A stretch of 40,040 nucleotides of DNA from Bacteroidota bacterium (GTDB lineage: Bacteria > Bacteroidota > Rhodothermia > Rhodothermales > Bin80): the NCBI GenBank assembly GCA_028875125.1, contig JAPPGC010000101.1, positions 1 through 40,040 of the forward strand. Direction: 5' to 3'. The position numbers and the translations under genes are program-made. This document shows positions 8,501 through 16,148 of the stretch, in pieces (position 1 is the first letter of the stretch; the number at the start of each line of letters is the position of its first letter). A model generated the notes under the pieces. That model had not been told where the DNA came from, ran no database searches, and was given only the letters and a program-made list of their open reading frames with translations.

Positions 8501-9004
8501 TTCCCACGTATTCGGCCAGATTGCGTACGATCCCTGAATTTTGGGGTAGGCGCGACGAGCACAAATGGCTCGATCATGATCGGTGGCTCGCACCCTCAAT
8601 GAACCCCTTTCGGACAATCTTCGACAAACCTCTTTTACGACTGCAAAGGCCTTTGGAAGAATTTCGTCTACGGTCTCCTCTGCTACCTCCAGCCATTCCT
8701 CCTCTAATTCATCCAGTTCTTCAAAGTAGTCCTGGCGATCATTTAGTGTAAGATATTCTTCTTCATCCCCCTGTGTATGACCCAATCGAAGCGCTTCATT
8801 AATCTCCTGCTGACGTGCTTCTATTTCACCTACTGCACTTCGGATCTGTTCACGATACACTATAGTTTGGCCACGCAGATCATCATCCGATAATCCTCTG
8901 ATCGCAGAAGTGGCTTCATGGATCTTATCAACCACAGGTTGATACTTGCGATCAAGCTCCCGCTGGTTCTTGTCACCGAAAAATTGATTAACGAACTTCA
9001 ACAT
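5528..9004 (-). CDS. secA: preprotein translocase subunit SecA
   Basis: The ATPase motor of the Sec pathway, driving unfolded preproteins through SecYEG. At 1158 residues it is far longer than E. coli SecA (901). The DEAD motor has Walker A MKTGEGKT at 199-206 and VDEVDS at 308-313. Then come the preprotein cross-linking region, the second motor domain with TNMAGRGTDI and QLRGRSGRQGDPG, and the scaffold and wing region. The protein ends in a zinc-binding SEC-C tail with Cys1143, Cys1145, Cys1154 and His1155. Extra length lies in an acidic, glutamate-rich helical insertion at about 58-118 and a charged coiled-coil insertion in the first third after the DEAD motif. Large SecA proteins occur in Bacteroidota and relatives. 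The ATG at 9004 gives MLKFVNQFFGDKNQREL, a normal N terminus. It heads the block with recN and the two mutases. Confidence 0.98.
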   Translation of the reverse strand: MLKFVNQFFGDKNQRELDRKYQPVVDKIHEATSAIRGLSDDDLRGQTIVYREQIRSAVGEIEARQQEINEALRLGHTQGDEEEYLTLNDRQDYFEELDELEEEWLEVAEETVDEILPKAFAVVKEVCRRLSERGSLRVRATDHDRAICARRAYPKIQGSYAIWPNTWEAGGAQIKWEMIPYDVQLLGGVVLHRGNIAEMKTGEGKTLVAVAPVYLNALLGRGVHLITVNPYLAQRDAEWMGPIFEFLGLTVDVIDGYDAHSGGRRDAYRADVTYGTNNEFGFDYLRDNSFVIDPNQLVQRGHHFAIVDEVDSVLVDEARTPLIISGPVPQANKSRFDELKPAVERLVQAQKRIVAGCVAKAEKYLKERDLALERGDERQAKEVEGSAGLELLRASRGFPRNKRLMKLLQESGVEQLRRKTEYFYLQDNAKNMPIVDGALHYALDEKQHALEPTDQGREFVARSAGEEVDLFVLPDVGEETARLNREYEDRKNQLYDSLREREDISEEKREHKLQNDLRVLKNALDEQTRKLYSTYSNRAERLHAIEQLLKAYTLYERDTEYIVQDDKVQIVDTHTGRVLSGRRYSDGLHQAIEAKEGVKVQAATQTYATVTLQNYFRMYSKLAGMTGTAETEAEEFHKIYKMDVVAVPTNRPIARQDLEDLVFRTRREKYSAVIDKIEEYHDKGQPVLVGTTSVEVSETLSRMLRRARIRHNVLNAKRDRAKQESLIVAEAGRRGAVTIATNMAGRGTDIKLGQGIPKLGGLAIIGTERHESRRIDLQLRGRSGRQGDPGESQFYISLEDDLMRLFGPDRVAGVMDRLKLETGAVITHPWVTKSIERAQKKVEQNNFAIRKRQLEYDDVLNAQRAVIYDRRTHALKGERFRGEILSMLQKLIQQLVQRHHGEGEVDELREEFRRLLSFDYEIDRKLFFDLGDDGVAEDAYNKAVAYYERKRRALAVPFSNSMKTVLESDVENKPERAFIDFSDGHRKLRTVVRIEDVVQSEGQEINDSLERTAMLSLIDEHWTEHLRSLDEVKEGIGLRAYGQRDPLVEYKMEAFRLFSEVIDQIGEDVVTFVFRAGPLVERRGNGSVGQRSRMDRSRATSRHQSAAASFGVVGSRNGGAQRDPSAKRKPVLVGEHVGRNSSCPCGSGKKYKHCHGRT

Positions 9005-9540
9005 ATTGCAACGACACTAGCTCGGCTAGTTTTGAGACGCTTCCTGCACTAACGAATTGAGGAGGAGATTCACGAGATGCATTCCACTCGAGCGGCGGAC
9101 TGCTGACACGCTTGTACACCGAATCCGTTCCCTTTACGCTCATATCCCGTGCCCTAAGAGCTGCCCTTGGGAGTCAATCGACAAACATAATTCCAATGCA
9201 TCCTTGAACGTCCTTCTATCTATGAAGCACATTATTATTCGCAATAGACGCGTATTTATACCACTAAATGTGTATATCAATTTCATGGAATCCAGAGCCG
9301 CTGAATCTTGAGGCTCGCTGACACCTCTTAACCCTTATTGAAAGCACTTAGCCTTCTTGTAGTTGCCATGTAACGTCTGCCTTCTTGTCGTTTTGATTGG
9401 AACAAATCCAAGTACTCAGTTTATCCCCCTCACTCCGCCGGAGCACTCAATAGTTTAGTCATATGGTCAGTCAATTTGCAAAACGGATTTTGCTAGTGCC
9501 TGCCGTATTACAACCCCTCAAGAATGTGAAGCTGAAACTC
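9005..9540. other. divergent intergenic region secA / porQ
   Basis: About 0.5 kb without a convincing gene lies between divergent secA and porQ. It must contain the promoters of both. On the minus strand, TATGTTTG (9182-9189) fits the TAnnTTTG -7 consensus of Bacteroidota, but no good -33 element is visible upstream of it. The segment 9225-9285 is AT-rich. Short open frames here look random. Confidence 0.4.
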
Positions 9541-10527
9541 ATGGCCCACCCCACTAGTGTGGTTGTTCGCAAGAATATTTTCTGGCTCACCACACTCACG
9601 TTCTTATGTGGGATAAACACTGTATACGGCCAGACGCTCTCAAGCTTTGATTTTCTTCGGGTTGAACCTTCTGCCCAAGCAGCTGCCCTAGGAGGTACAT
9701 CGCTGACTACTACCTCAAACCAAGGGAATGTCCTGTTCTATAATCCGGCCCTTCTGGGCGAGGATCTGGACGGAAATCTTTCTGTGTCCTGGCTGAACCA
9801 CCTCAGCGACCTCCAGGCCGGCGCACTTACCTATGCCCAAAACCTCGGTCCAATTGGCATAGGCGCAGTGGGGGTACGTTTTTTCCACTGGGGTAGCATC
9901 ACTAAAGCAGATATATACGGAGAGCGCAATGGCACACTCTCATCAAGTAATCTTGCACTCTCCGCTGGCCTGTCACGATCCTGGCAATCTGGACTCCGCT
10001 ACGGCGGGAGTATACATCTGATCTATGCTTCAGTAGGACAATTCAATGCAATAGCTGCCGCCGTAGATGTGGGCGCTGCCTACCATATGCCCGACCAGGG
10101 ATTTGTCGCCTCAGTGGCAGTAACGAACACGGGCATAGTCCTTTCGAGCCTTGGCCCTACACGTGACGAACTTCCAATGGATATTCGTATAGCCGTGTCC
10201 AAACGCCTCAAGTATATTCCAGTCCTGTTCGGCCTCACACTCCATAATCTGCAGAATGCTCACGAAATCACAGCCGTGGATGAAGGATTTCGTCATGCGA
10301 TCTTCAGCCTCCAGTTCGAGGCTATACCGGCGTTTCATCTTCGCCTCGGCTATAGCCACCGAAAACGCAACCTTAAATCTGACCGCCGGCTAGATTTGGC
10401 AGGTACTGCTGTCGGATTCGGACTCCGTGTACGGGGTTTTCAGGTTGACTATGCCTTCAGTTCCTGGTCATTTGCCGGACTGCACCAGTTCACCGTAGCC
10501 AGGAAGTTCAATAGGAGGCGTCAATAA
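9541..10527 (+). CDS. porQ: PorQ-like type IX secretion system outer-membrane protein
   Basis: A 328-residue predicted outer-membrane beta-barrel. A signal peptide (KNIFWLTTLTFLCGINTVYG, with cleavage before QTLSS) is followed by the typical PorQ/PorV-like opening SFDFLRVEPSAQAAALGGTS and NVLFYNPALLG. Alternating amphipathic strands continue to the C terminus, which ends in an aromatic-rich strand and a basic tail. In Bacteroidota, PorQ belongs to the type IX secretion system and works with PorZ in the surface attachment complex. An in-frame ATG at 9463 would add 26 residues before the signal peptide; I prefer 9541. The 3' end overlaps the convergent Xer-like gene by 20 nt. No other T9SS component is visible in the window. 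Family assignment is good, exact subtype slightly less so. Confidence 0.85.
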   Translation: MAHPTSVVVRKNIFWLTTLTFLCGINTVYGQTLSSFDFLRVEPSAQAAALGGTSLTTTSNQGNVLFYNPALLGEDLDGNLSVSWLNHLSDLQAGALTYAQNLGPIGIGAVGVRFFHWGSITKADIYGERNGTLSSSNLALSAGLSRSWQSGLRYGGSIHLIYASVGQFNAIAAAVDVGAAYHMPDQGFVASVAVTNTGIVLSSLGPTRDELPMDIRIAVSKRLKYIPVLFGLTLHNLQNAHEITAVDEGFRHAIFSLQFEAIPAFHLRLGYSHRKRNLKSDRRLDLAGTAVGFGLRVRGFQVDYAFSSWSFAGLHQFTVARKFNRRRQ

Positions 10528-11422
10528 GCCCTTGGGCTTTCAGATCATTGAGGCGGTGGAAGAGCCTCCACGGACGTGTACGTTGCCGTAATTCTGCCCT
10601 TGAAATGCCGCTCTGGATCAATAGATAAATAGAGGTATGTGTCAGGCTTTGTGGGGAAACATCCAGACGCGTTATTCCGGCTTGATCAAGCAACACACGC
10701 ATACGAGCCCGTACTGAACGAACTTTCAGGCGCTCATTTTGCCCGCGTGGACCATGCGACACAAAGAGCGGGTCGTTAAATCTGATATACTCAGCCCGAC
10801 TGGACAGGTAGGCTACAATACTCTTGTACGTTCGTGAATCCAGCGGCACACGTAAGCGCCCCCCTTTGCCACGAACAACCAACTCGTCACCCATTAATGT
10901 GTGCTCCAAGTCTTTATAGTTACACCGTACAGTTTCCCCCTCGGAAAGACCTTCTATAAGCATGCAGCACAGGATGGCCCGATCACGCAGGTCAATGGGA
11001 TCCGAGGATTCCGTTACCTGAAGCAACCGCTCAACTTCGTCCGTGGTCAATATGCCCCGACTTCCCGCCGACCCACTTACCTTCACCGAAAGCCCCTTTG
11101 ACGGATCTTCTTGCAGTAAACCCTTTTCGGAAAGAAATGCGAAAAACTGCCGCACAGCTGTCAGATAAGTCTGGATCGTTCGATCCTTGACTTTCCGTAC
11201 GCGGCGCAAGTACAGCAAATAATCCTCCAGACTTGCCCGGGAGAGCTGAACTCTGCCGCCCTTCTCATCGACCCACAACATAAAAACTCCGAGCGCTCTA
11301 CCGTATGTCTTCCGTGTTGCTGGAGATTTTTCAGAGGCCAGGCTGCTTAGGAAGTGCTCTACCCTCGCAGAAATCGCATCCGTAGTCAAAATTTTGGCTC
11401 GGTCACGATTATCAGACGACAT
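10508..11422 (-). CDS. Xer-like tyrosine recombinase lacking catalytic residues
   Basis: A 304-residue protein of normal XerC/XerD length. The N-terminal SAM-like core-binding domain (about 15-110) is well preserved, e.g. SPATRKTYGRALGVFMLWV and TIQTYLTAVRQFFAFLSEKGL. The catalytic domain fold is recognisable at LRDRAILCCMLIEGL and VRGKGGRLRVPLD (Lys186), but the active site is eroded. The box I arginine of GLRxSE is Ser160 (GLSEGE). The box II HxLRH reads QSLTH, with Gln258 and Thr261. No HxxxxT...Y nucleophile motif is seen; the C terminus is FHRLNDLKAQGLIDASY. It is unlikely to recombine DNA, and could be a DNA-binding relic or regulator. The frame is intact, starting 36 nt after the E2 gene, so it may be co-transcribed with it. 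Confidence 0.85.
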   Translation of the reverse strand: MSSDNRDRAKILTTDAISARVEHFLSSLASEKSPATRKTYGRALGVFMLWVDEKGGRVQLSRASLEDYLLYLRRVRKVKDRTIQTYLTAVRQFFAFLSEKGLLQEDPSKGLSVKVSGSAGSRGILTTDEVERLLQVTESSDPIDLRDRAILCCMLIEGLSEGETVRCNYKDLEHTLMGDELVVRGKGGRLRVPLDSRTYKSIVAYLSSRAEYIRFNDPLFVSHGPRGQNERLKVRSVRARMRVLLDQAGITRLDVSPQSLTHTSIYLLIQSGISRAELRQRTRPWRLFHRLNDLKAQGLIDASY

Positions 11423-11458
11423 GCCTCAGAGGGACCTGTGATTATTCCGCAAGCAAAC

Positions 11459-13129
11459 CTATAGCTCCATCTCTGGGTCAAGGTTTTCAATTACTTCCGT
11501 ATACCGGCGCAGGAAAGCTATCCCCATAGCGCCATCAATTACACGATGATCATAGGACAATGAAAGGATCATCATATGGCGAATCGCAATCGTGTCGCCA
11601 TGTTCAGGATGCTCGACTACAATTGGACGTTTCTTGATGGAGCCAGTGGCAAGAATGGCCACTTGGGGCTGTAAGATGATTGGCGTACCCATTAAGGATC
11701 CCAGTGAACCCACATTCGTCAAGGTGAAGGTTCCATCCTGTAAATCGTCAGGGAGTAATTCGGATGAGCGTGCACGATGCGCTAAATCGCTTGCTGCATG
11801 GGCAAGTCCAGCTATACTCAACCGCCCGGCGTGTCGGATTACTGGAACAATCAATCCAGATTCCTTGATCGCTACTGCGATACCAATATGGTAATCTTTT
11901 TTGACCAGGATCTGGTTTTTCTCTACCGAACTGTTCAAGATTGGAAACTCACGCAGTGCTTCTACGGCTGCATGAACAAAAAAGGGCGTGTAGGTCAGCT
12001 TCACTCCATCGCGTGCAAGAAAAGCCTGCTTATTGGCCTCTCGTATCCGGACAAGTCGTGTCACATCAACCTCTGAAAATGAAGTTACGTGTGCTGACGT
12101 GCGTTTGGAATGTGTCATATGCTCAGCAATAAGCTGACGCATCCGCCCCATCTGGATAACCTCTACCCGCTGTGAGTCCCCGTCAGTAGGTACAGGGTGG
12201 GAAACCTTTTTCCTTACAGGCGGGGGACTAAGCGGAGTTCTCGTACGCCCTGTGGGCCTCTTGCGAGATTCCAGATAGTTTACTACGTCTTTCTTAGTGA
12301 GCCGTCCCTCACGTCCAGATCCTTTTATCCTGGACAATTCATCCCTAGATATATTCTCAGCCTGTGCGATGCTGCGCACCAGTGGGCTCAGGAATCGTCC
12401 GTCCGCCAGATGCCGGTCGCTATCAATCTGTTCCGGCTCGCCCGCAGGTGTGATCTCAGAAGGCGGAGCAGGCTCCTCTACCGTTCCAGACGACAATGGA
12501 GCAGCTTCCTCTACGGTATCGGGCATTGATTCTGCATCCTGCACGGGCACGGTCCCTTCGGCACCTATCAATGCGATCGTAGTGCCTACTTCAACTGTCT
12601 CTCCTTCGGGCACCAGAATTTCTCGAAGAATGCCCGTGGCAGGGGCCGGCACGTCCGTATCTACTTTGTCTGTCCCGATTTCCAACAGGGTCTCATCCAG
12701 TTCAACCGAATCTCCTACCTGCTTATGCCAGACAATCACCGTCCCCTCGGTAATACTTTCGCCCATCTTCGGCATCACTACAGATATATCTGCCGCTGAC
12801 GCCAATGTCGATTCTGGTCCGGGTGACTTCGGAGCTTCCGCTGGTTCAGAAGCCGCAGCACCCTGAGTTGCACTGGGGGAATCCTCGCCCTCGGTGGCAA
12901 TAATAGCGATCACATGTCCTACCGGAACGGTCTCACCCTCCTGTGTGAGAATTTCCGTAACTACTCCGCCCGCTGGAGCAGGGACATCCGTATCTACCTT
13001 GTCGGTTCCTATTTCCAGCAAGACTTCATCCAGTTCGACTGGATCACCTACTTGCTTATGCCAGACAATCACCGATCCCTCGGTAATGCTCTCGCCCATC
13101 TTGGGCATTAGCACTTCAACCTTCGCCAT
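11459..13129 (-). CDS. 2-oxo-acid dehydrogenase E2 (dihydrolipoamide acyltransferase) with two lipoyl domains
   Basis: A 556-residue E2 core subunit of a 2-oxo-acid dehydrogenase complex. It transfers acyl groups from the E1-charged lipoyl arm to CoA. Two almost identical lipoyl domains (about 1-80 and 113-192) each carry the lipoylation motif EIGTDKVDTD, with Lys44 and Lys155. They are followed by Pro/Ala/Glu linkers, a peripheral subunit-binding domain at about 245-288, a second linker, and the catalytic domain (about 325-555) ending in SYDHRVIDG with His528 and Asp532. Whether the substrate is pyruvate, 2-oxoglutarate or branched-chain oxoacids cannot be decided: no E1 or E3 gene is adjacent, so no symbol is given. 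The gene lies alone upstream of the Xer-like gene. Confidence 0.94.
   Translation of the reverse strand: MAKVEVLMPKMGESITEGSVIVWHKQVGDPVELDEVLLEIGTDKVDTDVPAPAGGVVTEILTQEGETVPVGHVIAIIATEGEDSPSATQGAAASEPAEAPKSPGPESTLASAADISVVMPKMGESITEGTVIVWHKQVGDSVELDETLLEIGTDKVDTDVPAPATGILREILVPEGETVEVGTTIALIGAEGTVPVQDAESMPDTVEEAAPLSSGTVEEPAPPSEITPAGEPEQIDSDRHLADGRFLSPLVRSIAQAENISRDELSRIKGSGREGRLTKKDVVNYLESRKRPTGRTRTPLSPPPVRKKVSHPVPTDGDSQRVEVIQMGRMRQLIAEHMTHSKRTSAHVTSFSEVDVTRLVRIREANKQAFLARDGVKLTYTPFFVHAAVEALREFPILNSSVEKNQILVKKDYHIGIAVAIKESGLIVPVIRHAGRLSIAGLAHAASDLAHRARSSELLPDDLQDGTFTLTNVGSLGSLMGTPIILQPQVAILATGSIKKRPIVVEHPEHGDTIAIRHMMILSLSYDHRVIDGAMGIAFLRRYTEVIENLDPEMEL
12635..13110 (-). repeat. internal duplication encoding tandem lipoyl domains
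   Basis: The lipoyl-domain coding segments around 12640-12775 and 12965-13110 are near-identical direct repeats. Differences are mostly at third codon positions, e.g. the shared stretches around TGCTTATGCCAGACAATCAC. This indicates intragenic duplication with conserved protein sequence. Confidence 0.8.
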
Positions 13130-13460
13130 GGAATGGAAATACTTTGGAAATTTTGTACCGTAACGCTACATCCACTTCGCGGATCACAAGGATGGCTAGC
13201 TATAATCTCCATATGCAGATCCCTCGTCCCAGATACACTGGATGAATCACTTGGAAATCATACGCTGCCTTATCATCATGTTCCTGAAAGCATGCCCCAA
13301 TGCTGAATATAACGACTATTAAGGTGGTTACTTAGATATACAATCTCAAGGTCTGTTACTAGCTTCCGTGGATTGTGCATGATGTAGATTTGTCAAGACA
13401 TTCCTGGAACAAAATATGCATTGGAGATTCCCGATATTAAATGGAAGATGGGAGTTTCTT
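13130..13460. other. intergenic region upstream of the E2 gene
   Basis: About 330 nt without a gene, between the end of the TonB-dependent receptor gene and the start of the E2 gene, both on the minus strand. It presumably holds the E2 promoter, but I could not find a TAnnTTTG or a sigma-70-like pair that I trust. Confidence 0.4.
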
Positions 13461-16148
13461 TCATCGAAAGATCACGCGTGTACCGAGATTGAATGTTCTG
13501 GGTAGACCAAGAAATACTTCTGCGTCATCTGCCCTTCCCATATTTACTCCGTTAAGGGTGTAAGCGTGAAAACGGGAATTATTTACGGCATCCTGCACAT
13601 AGAATGTGTTCGCTACGTTGAAGACATGTAAAAACAATCGGACACCAAAACGCCCCCTATCAAAATTATAGCCCGCCTTGAGATCGAACACTGTGTACCC
13701 GGGGGCCTCCCAAACCGGACTGTTTCGTTCGCTATAGCCGGCAGGATCAAAATCCGCAAAATGTTTGGCATAGGAACGTCCAGTCAGCACAACATGCATC
13801 CCCGACCTGGGATATGCCGTTATGGCATAGGCGAGTTGAGCCTGCGGAGAGTCCCCCACTTTTACCCCGCTGAGGGGGAGAAACACCCGTTCTCGGCTAT
13901 CTGGATTGGAACGATCAGGCGTATATGTGCCAGAAACATCATCCGTGTATTTCCAGTCCCCCACAGAGAAAGCCCCATCCAAACGTACGAAATCTACCGG
14001 TTGCCAGGCAAGCTCTCCTTCAACTCCTCTGTGCAGCGCATTCAATCCTCCTATGTTGACTAATGCATCATTGCCACTCTGCTCCAACAGACTGCGTGTC
14101 ACGGTTCGATCATTCCATGTTGTATGATAGAGATTCAGCTTTGCTGTAACCCTCCTGTCTAAAGATCGATAATTCACACCGCTTTCGACCCCGATGAAGG
14201 ACTCATTCTGGGGATCCGGGTTAATACTGCCGGAGATGGCGTCAATGACACCATCAAAAACAGGAACCTTTGAAACGCGGCCGATACTGGCATAAGCAGA
14301 TAAGACCTCGTTCAGACGATAGTTTGCCCCTCCCTTGACTTGATAACCGCCGATAGGTGATGGCGAAGCAGCAAATGGCCTTCCATGGCCATCATCAGTA
14401 AAGAAATCTTCAAATGTATACTTGATTCTCGAATAACCCACTACTGCAAAACTGCTCAATGGTCCTGTTTCATATCGCCCCTGTAAAAATCCACCGATCC
14501 AGTTTATAGTCACGATATCATCGTAGTCAAACCGCTCCCCTAACTGTAGCGCACGTCCCCCCGAACCCCAGAAATCATTGTCGAATCGCAAATATCCCTG
14601 GCCCCCCAACAGATCTCTCACAGTACTGAAATGCTGAATTTCGGCACTGCGCCAGTCGAGTCCAGCTTCCAGTTCAATATGATCGTTGACTTGATGGGTC
14701 AACTTGGAAATAGCCCCCAGCGTCCATTGTACATTATGGCGGTTCCGAATTATACCGCGAGACAGTCCATTTCTTCTATTGGCCTCAATGGTTGCATCGT
14801 AATCGGGGACCGGAGAGGGACCGCTCTGATCTGCAACCAAGTCACCATGACGACTTGACCCGCCCCCCTTTCCTCCCGAATAATACACGATGGTCGAAAG
14901 AAGAGATTTTTCTGTCAGTTGTCCAAAATGACTTAAGCTTAATATGGGCTTGTGAAAGAAATTCTCGAATTCGTCAATATATCCGCTGTTCTTGCGTTGC
15001 ACAGGTCCAAAGCCATTATGCTGATCCCTTGTATAAGTCTCCGAAACTGCACCGAGATTTTGATTCCAGCGCCGCCCTCTTTCTGGATAAGCCTGCAGAA
15101 TCTCGCTGATGGTTGCGGCATCCAATCCATCCCGCTCAAATACTTTACTGGCATACTCGTGGTCGTAAGCAGCGATATTCTGACGGGAAAAATTTTGTCC
15201 GTGACGCTGTGGGGAGCCGACCGCCGAAAAGTCGAGGCGGTGCGTACTGCTCGCATTCCAACCAACCGCAGCATAGTAGGACCACATGTCGGTCCAAGTT
15301 CCATCTACATATCCCTGTCCGGTCTTGCGTACTCCAGAAACGGTTACAGCCACTTTGCCATCAATGAGCCCCGAGGATAGCATGAGGGTGGATTTACGCA
15401 GTCCATCGTTGCCGAACTCCTGTTTGAGCAGTACTTGTCGCGCATTGCGTGCCGGATCGGTAAGAATATTCATTGTACCCCCAATCGACGGCGTTGCCAC
15501 TGTGACAACTGACAACCCACGTTGGAGCTGGATAGAATTTGTCATTTCCTCCAGGCCATCCCAATTTGACCAGTAAAGCCAACCATTCTCCATATCATTT
15601 ACCGGGACGCCGTTGATCAAAATTGCTATGTTACGCTGATTAAATCCACGTACATTCACGCGTGCGTCTCCCGCTCCTCCCCCTTGTACTGTACTGTAAA
15701 CCGAAGGCATGGTGTTGAGCACAAGCGGGACATCACGCGAACCGAGATCGCGTTGCAATCGCGCCTTTCCCAGAGTTGTGAAGGCAACTGGCGTCCTCTG
15801 CTCCAAGGCTCTGGAAGCAAATACTTCCATACCCTCCAACGCCACACTGGTGGCCTCTATTTCAAAATTCAGTACGACATCCGAACTTCGTACCGTCACA
15901 ACCTGTGATTCATCATCATAGCCCACGAAAGAGACAGTGACGGTGTACGTACCTGGCGAAAGATCGGAGAGTAAAAAATGCCCTTCTAAGTCCGTAGTCG
16001 TACCACGCGAAGAACCTTCTATGATCACGGATGCTCCGGGTAGCAGTTCGTCGGTGTCACGAGTCGTTACAGTTCCAGAAAGGTTGTATTGCGCCCAGGA
16101 TACACTCACTGAAAAGAAGCTTGCAAGAATGAGCAAAATTGATTTCAT
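13461..16148 (-). CDS. TonB-dependent outer-membrane receptor
   Basis: An 895-residue TonB-dependent transporter. A signal peptide (MKSILLILASFFSVSVSWA, cleaved before Q) is followed by a carboxypeptidase-regulatory-like domain (about 22-105, with GASVIIEGSSRGTTTDLEG and FVGYDD). Next come a plug domain (VNVRGFNQRNIAILINGVPV, GLSVVTVATPSIGGTMNILTD) and a long beta-barrel with many aromatic strand ends, closing with FNLGTRVIFR. The ligand is unknown. No SusD partner is adjacent, which argues against a SusC-type glycan pair and fits a siderophore or cofactor-type receptor. The ATG at 16148 is chosen; an upstream in-frame start at 16304 would add 52 non-signal residues. It lies 127 nt downstream of hppA on the same strand. 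Confidence 0.92.
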   Translation of the reverse strand: MKSILLILASFFSVSVSWAQYNLSGTVTTRDTDELLPGASVIIEGSSRGTTTDLEGHFLLSDLSPGTYTVTVSFVGYDDESQVVTVRSSDVVLNFEIEATSVALEGMEVFASRALEQRTPVAFTTLGKARLQRDLGSRDVPLVLNTMPSVYSTVQGGGAGDARVNVRGFNQRNIAILINGVPVNDMENGWLYWSNWDGLEEMTNSIQLQRGLSVVTVATPSIGGTMNILTDPARNARQVLLKQEFGNDGLRKSTLMLSSGLIDGKVAVTVSGVRKTGQGYVDGTWTDMWSYYAAVGWNASSTHRLDFSAVGSPQRHGQNFSRQNIAAYDHEYASKVFERDGLDAATISEILQAYPERGRRWNQNLGAVSETYTRDQHNGFGPVQRKNSGYIDEFENFFHKPILSLSHFGQLTEKSLLSTIVYYSGGKGGGSSRHGDLVADQSGPSPVPDYDATIEANRRNGLSRGIIRNRHNVQWTLGAISKLTHQVNDHIELEAGLDWRSAEIQHFSTVRDLLGGQGYLRFDNDFWGSGGRALQLGERFDYDDIVTINWIGGFLQGRYETGPLSSFAVVGYSRIKYTFEDFFTDDGHGRPFAASPSPIGGYQVKGGANYRLNEVLSAYASIGRVSKVPVFDGVIDAISGSINPDPQNESFIGVESGVNYRSLDRRVTAKLNLYHTTWNDRTVTRSLLEQSGNDALVNIGGLNALHRGVEGELAWQPVDFVRLDGAFSVGDWKYTDDVSGTYTPDRSNPDSRERVFLPLSGVKVGDSPQAQLAYAITAYPRSGMHVVLTGRSYAKHFADFDPAGYSERNSPVWEAPGYTVFDLKAGYNFDRGRFGVRLFLHVFNVANTFYVQDAVNNSRFHAYTLNGVNMGRADDAEVFLGLPRTFNLGTRVIFR

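Follow-up and report, generated by a model that had tools for sequence, protein, structure and literature searches.

The window, meaning the whole stretch of 40,040 nucleotides that was analysed, carries a gene, here called B, whose product has the fold of an Xer-like tyrosine recombinase (Table 1). Its reading frame starts with ATG and runs for 304 residues with zero internal stops, and its neighbours in the window are sucB, porQ and secA. The protein matched the Pfam models of both the SAM-like N-terminal core-binding domain (38.8 bits, cut-off 27) and the Phage_integrase catalytic-domain fold (54.4 bits, cut-off 27.1), with further matches of the N-terminal domain to SAM_4 at residues 30-95 and to SAM_1 at residues 21-100. 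The intact frame and preserved N-terminal domain described in an earlier sequence-only reading of this DNA were thus borne out. As for the convergent neighbour, the PorQ-family protein scored 216.6 bits, just below the equivalog cut-off of 220, and represents a type IX secretion marker in the lineage of the window.

Table 1. Features of gene B and of its flanking genes in the window
Feature	Position	Strand	Basis
B gene, Xer-like tyrosine-recombinase-fold protein without catalytic site, 304 aa	10508..11422	(-)	
N-terminal SAM-like core-binding domain, about residues 11-111	11090..11392	(-)	Pfam and model helices
Ser160, box I arginine position (XerD R148)	10943..10945	(-)	XerD alignment
Lys186, sole catalytic residue left (XerD K172)	10865..10867	(-)	XerD alignment
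R231-LKVRSVRA-R240, family-invariant arginine motif, start of helix 234-247	10703..10732	(-)	
QSLT, residues 258-261, replacing box II HxLR	10640..10651	(-)	
Pro284, H-III position (XerD H270)	10571..10573	(-)	Alignment
Asp293, tyrosine nucleophile position (XerD Y279)	10544..10546	(-)	Alignment
sucB-type E2 (2-oxoacid dehydrogenase acyltransferase), directly upstream of B, gap 36 bp	11459..13129	(-)	
PorQ-family (type IX secretion) gene, convergent, 20-bp overlap with the 3′ end of B	9463..10527	(+)	

The AlphaFold2 model of the window protein had a mean pLDDT of 88 and contained every recombinase element, including the N-terminal helices 14-28, 34-53, 62-74 and 80-99. The model stops after helix 284-296, which would carry the tyrosine, and the C-terminal exchange helix is absent, while an additional low-confidence C-terminal helix (312-319), lacking in window B, is found in a probable R. 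marinus relative. The nearest solved folds were XerA (5hxy), XerD, the integron integrase, Tn1549 Int, Cre and XerH (5jk0), with modest whole-chain TM-scores of 0.40-0.56, probably because the two domains sit at different angles. By sequence, the best solved relative was E. coli XerD (1a0p, E 5e-13), and B shares with XerC and XerD, the double-recombinase dif system, the two-domain fold, the length and sequence homology. However, it lacks their R, H, R, H and Y, belongs to a clade of its own and scored 100.9 bits against 329.6 for the XerD equivalog model and 88.4 against 335.2 for that of XerC. The single recombinases XerA, XerH and XerS also differ from B in being catalytic, with RKHR(H/W)Y, and the active Xer-like protein of the window genome is a separate one (A2, see below).

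Catalytic positions were assigned in XerD numbering with control sequences from E. coli K-12. The alignment with E. coli XerD gave R148 to Ser160, K172 to Lys186 (kept), H244 to Gln258, R247 to Thr261, H270 to Pro284 and Y279 to Asp293, so that window B reads S-K-Q-T-P-D in place of R-K-H-R-(H/W)-Y and five of the six catalytic residues are absent. The sequence-only reading had named Ser160, Gln258 and Thr261 correctly and had seen no tyrosine nucleophile, which agrees with Asp293; the retained lysine and the proline at H-III go beyond it. The isoelectric point of window B is 9.9. Some relatives are not basic, such as a probable Salinibacter sequence (L041) with a pI of 5.1, which could be a halophile adaptation.

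Two relatives of the same genus (L008 and L009), 91 and 88% identical to window B, share its substitutions, and sequencing error is therefore excluded. The dN/dS values among these three sequences, calculated by the Nei-Gojobori method, were 0.141 and 0.123 between window B and each relative and 0.156 between the relatives, far from the value near 1 that had been named as the sign of decay, and were lowest at residues 250-304, the former active-site end (0.040 and 0.088). For the neighbouring genes they were 0.14 (PorQ), 0.06-0.11 (SucB) and 0.03-0.05 (SecA), and the constraint on B is thus comparable to that on an ordinary functional neighbour.

An orthologue of B was found in 56 of 59 relatives, usually as one copy, a count in which the match in G037 is a different protein and G005 carries one extra fragment. 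The assemblies of G009, G030 and G037 are fragmented, with estimated completeness of 94%, 85% and 96%, respectively. Across the class, B occurred in 58 Rhodothermales genomes, making it nearly universal in that order, and in two genomes of another family, f16. Lower-scoring members came from some 15 other Bacteroidota families (including f25, f30, f32, f35, f37, f41, f42, f44, f53, f54, f58 and f59), most of the genomes compared being metagenome assemblies. Within the class, the listed genomes of f17 and f18 gave no B, and a peptide-pattern scan of genome contigs returned the two nearest relatives only. In the maximum-likelihood tree all tested B sequences formed one clade (support 100/99), separate from XerC, XerD and the active recombinases; the window gene falls within it and lacks the pair of catalytic arginines, R-I and R-II. 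A mobile-element origin was rejected, as viral contigs yielded no B and the plasmid and phage matches were generic tyrosine recombinases with <33% identity. B is a vertically inherited, single-copy chromosomal family.

Within the order, sucB lies directly upstream of B on the same strand at 35 of 50 loci, with a gap mostly <370 bp, and porQ is found in the flank at 26 loci, convergent in every one. This conserved context speaks for stable inheritance of B rather than for a function, and neither sucB and porQ nor the neighbours outside the order, which differ, gave a functional clue. In the two f16 sequences (L136 and L137, from genomes G061 and G059), B carries an insertion before the H-III region and lies near recX/ispE-like genes, alongside canonical Xer recombinases.

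The residues lost follow a pattern across the family. At R-I (XerD 148), arginine appeared in none of the 59 order sequences and serine in 49, and at R-II arginine appeared in two and threonine in 51, while in 28 wider sequences R-I was serine in 20 and R-II was arginine in 23. Both catalytic arginines occurred together in L225 only, a marginal match (126 bits) of doubtful membership. The catalytic lysine was kept in 53/59 order and 27/28 wider sequences, and the tyrosine in 41/59 and 27/28, respectively. Among the 44 order sequences outside the family of the window, the lysine and both histidines were invariant and the tyrosine was present in 91%, L017, L020 and L025 being examples with these residues conserved and the arginines gone; about half of the wider set lacked both histidines, with F and I instead. 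In the 15 sequences of the window's family, the catalytic K/H/H/Y were kept in 13 of 60 cells, as compared with 140 of 150 for ten other family-invariant arginines; R217, R221 and R226 (XerD numbering) were found in 15/15 and R224 in 14/15, and the motif R231-LKVRSVRA-R240 is among these conserved arginines. The sequence-only reading had foreseen neither the family-wide loss of the two catalytic arginines nor the confinement of the histidine and tyrosine loss to the window's family. The pattern suggests an order of events in which the arginines were lost first, family-wide, followed later by the histidines, the tyrosine and the exchange helix in the family of the window, and intermediate states are still visible, namely no arginine with histidines and tyrosine kept, and then nothing kept.

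Near-invariant, family-specific arginines of the clade were located at XerD positions 154, 217, 221, 224, 267 and 269. They lie near the recognition helix and beside H-III and are candidate substitute or DNA-contact residues. By homology, helix 234-247 would correspond to helix J and may be the DNA-recognition helix; its Cre counterpart contacts the major groove. The putative DNA-contact residues have been retained throughout the history of B.

The sequence-only reading had proposed looking for a separate active XerC/D pair. No canonical pair was found in the order, which instead has a lone recombinase, either type A or type A2, with RKHRHY intact. Orthologues of B with all RKHRHY residues, named in that reading as grounds for refutation, were not found in the order. 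None of the 59 relatives had a match above the XerD equivalog cut-off, which is strict, as 4 of 14 control genomes passed it; with phmmer against E. coli XerC/XerD, the best proteins of the order reached about 115 bits, and most recombinases of f16-f18 reached 180-225. The window genome has A2 on contig C88, and neither A nor A2 was found in several fragmented genomes (G015, G016, G025, G034 and G044). A canonical dif-like site with one or two mismatches was present in f17, f18 and one distant member of the phylum. Among 12 Rhodothermales genomes (G000, G011, G017, G022, G026, G028, G031, G038, G039, G046, G048 and G053), none had such a site at up to three mismatches, the one 3-mismatch match, in G048, being unlike dif. 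FtsK-gamma was intact in 10 of the 11 dif-tested genomes searched for it (all but G046) and was not found in G053.

Genomes with A2 carried a 28-bp palindrome of 11-6-11 structure, ATGTAACATAA-N6-TTATGTTACAT, generally in a single copy and in many cases immediately upstream of the A2 gene, and a reversed-pattern control gave 0 matches in 78 genomes. In the window genome, contig C86 carries one exact copy and C29 one copy with a single mismatch. For the family of the window, f4 and part of f5, A2 and its palindrome are a candidate single-recombinase Xer/dif module. Entries for this module are C86:18284-18309 (the exact copy) and C88:8537-9031 of G000 (L001, L074), as well as L059, L075, L076, L079 and L108. 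A different palindrome, GATAA-N6-TTATC, was found at about 10 of 17 type A loci, mostly just upstream, and all five f15 genomes had an exact match to TTCCGATAA-N6-TTATCGGAA. Type A recombinases (ARHK.IETTM.YVHQRD) with an upstream 11-6-11 palindrome were recorded at L091, L092, L094, L095, L098, L100 and L106. A recombination site linked to its recombinase gene has been called a possible hallmark of systems with a single recombinase (PMC5357621), and we infer that A and A2 are single-recombinase replacements of XerCD/dif. Separately, two mutually similar phage-type integrases in opposite orientation were observed at G000:C54:133096-134764; about 0.5 kb from them, at C54:132637-132660, lies an imperfect palindrome, TTCC.ATAA-N6-TTAT.GGAA.

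Several explanations of B were weighed against these results. The loss of catalytic residues might suggest a decaying former recombinase or an assembly error, which is extremely improbable given dN/dS values of 0.12-0.16, the same substitutions in close relatives and an order-wide frame and synteny. Pseudogene and sequencing error were accordingly ruled out, and the preference of the sequence-only reading for a retained non-catalytic role over decay was upheld, also by the single-copy orthologues. The partner role suggested there fared less well. In such a role, B would assist dimer resolution as a non-catalytic subunit or regulator of the active Xer; it would bind either dif or the recombinase and determine the order in which strands are exchanged or the control by FtsK. 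This would fit an order that keeps FtsK-gamma with no canonical XerC/XerD, as well as the Rhodothermus-type genomes G017, G031 and G041, in which B and a single active Xer-like protein are the sole matches at E<=1e-10. However, the sites of the active Xer are near-perfect palindromes suited to a homotetramer, and where a lone active recombinase acts on a palindromic site, a dead partner for one half-site has no evident place. B is moreover older than the lone-Xer system and is also found in lineages with canonical XerC/XerD-type recombinases (f16, G148, G172 and G160), its arginine motif is constant where the sites differ between type A (GATAA) and A2 (AACATAA), and the C-terminal exchange helix is missing in the window's family. 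A partner role is thus unlikely, and B is probably not half of an XerC/D pair. In particular, B as a replacement of XerD in an XerCD pair was rejected because canonical Xer recombinases coexist with it elsewhere and the sites in the order are palindromic.

A second possibility is that members bearing the tyrosine cleave DNA with relocated arginines, so that the family of the window alone would be truly dead. The frequencies of tyrosine and lysine given above are in keeping with this, as are candidate relocated arginines at XerD positions 154, 217, 221 and 269, of which 221 and 269 are near-invariant and family-specific and 269 adjoins H-III. Against it stand the absence of both Arg-I and Arg-II in most of the order and of both histidines in about half of the wider set; to our knowledge, relocation of both catalytic arginines has no precedent. 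For the window protein this chemistry is impossible, since it has no tyrosine. In IntDOT, the integrase of CTnDOT, Arg-I is relocated and a substitute arginine is used by the active enzyme (PMC8138268), so B resembles it as a Bacteroidota tyrosine recombinase with a non-arginine at the Arg-I position, but window B also lacks Arg-II, both histidines and the tyrosine. Furthermore, Cre and Flp mutants that had lost a single arginine needed methylphosphonate substrates for rescue (PMC4499138). Taken together, rewired catalysis is decidedly improbable. A fold kept purely for protein-protein contact, which the lost catalytic centre and the acidity of some members would allow, is very improbable in view of the invariant arginines kept in the putative DNA-contact helix and in the core-binding domain.

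B is therefore probably best regarded as a sequence-specific DNA-binding protein that gave up strand exchange. In window B, loss of the catalytic residues coincides with a frame under purifying selection, and the conserved arginines and the basic charge would fit DNA binding. The arginine-rich helix of the C-terminal domain would, together with the SAM-like core-binding domain, clamp around one half-site in the fashion of an Xer monomer, so that B would bind or bend DNA with no cleavage, with regulation or chromosome architecture as the possible outcome. In most of the order the former pocket has Lys-His-His-Tyr and no arginine. As both histidines, the tyrosine and the C-terminal exchange helix are gone in the family of the window, assembly of a cyclic tetramer is unlikely there. 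Moreover, since B predates the lone-Xer system and its arginine motif is unchanged across the switch of sites, it most likely binds a target of its own. A binding site adjoining the B gene was rejected, as no 11-bp palindrome with at least 9/11 matches was found in window positions 8901-13500 and visual inspection of the secA-porQ and sucB upstream regions showed nothing clear. The main misfit of the DNA-binder reading is the retention of the lysine and the tyrosine in most of B, and of both histidines in the order, which is odd for a chemistry long abandoned.

Dead tyrosine recombinases acting as DNA binders are already known from one Tn7-like transposon and from eukaryotes. TnsF of Tn6022, a protein derived from a tyrosine recombinase and no longer active as one, binds its target DNA (PMC10293859). 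Like B, it is a catalytically dead relative of these enzymes, the binding of a specific DNA site being a property of TnsF. Its catalytic domain is partial, and it has zinc fingers, tandem core-binding domains and TniQ/Tn7 partners, unlike B, a core gene of full length that encodes two domains and is not near transposons; no TnsF-type Pfam domains or tniQ/Tn7 neighbours were found for window B. The DUF3504 proteins, Cbf2/Ndc10 and Gcr1 are domesticated Crypton recombinases and a case of lasting domestication in eukaryotes (PMC3212892). They resemble B as conserved host proteins derived from tyrosine recombinases with most catalytic residues lost, but they are eukaryotic, sit in other domain settings and have shown no close sequence kinship to B. 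No conserved bacterial core-gene family of dead tyrosine recombinases was found in the open-licence literature, and a description in subscription journals is possible.

The Rhodothermales, having neither canonical XerC/XerD nor canonical dif but keeping FtsK-gamma, form an order in which chromosome dimer resolution is directly testable through the two candidate single-recombinase replacements and their sites. An arginine-less pocket in a core protein found throughout such an order might, speculatively, mean that this protein acts on the chromosome in a new, sequence-specific way, through arginine-independent tyrosine chemistry or as an Xer-derived DNA binder with an organising or regulatory task, in bacteria where single-recombinase systems replaced XerCD/dif. 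If B binds DNA specifically, it would be a case of an Xer fold converted, on the timescale of a phylum, to a DNA-binding protein of the chromosome.
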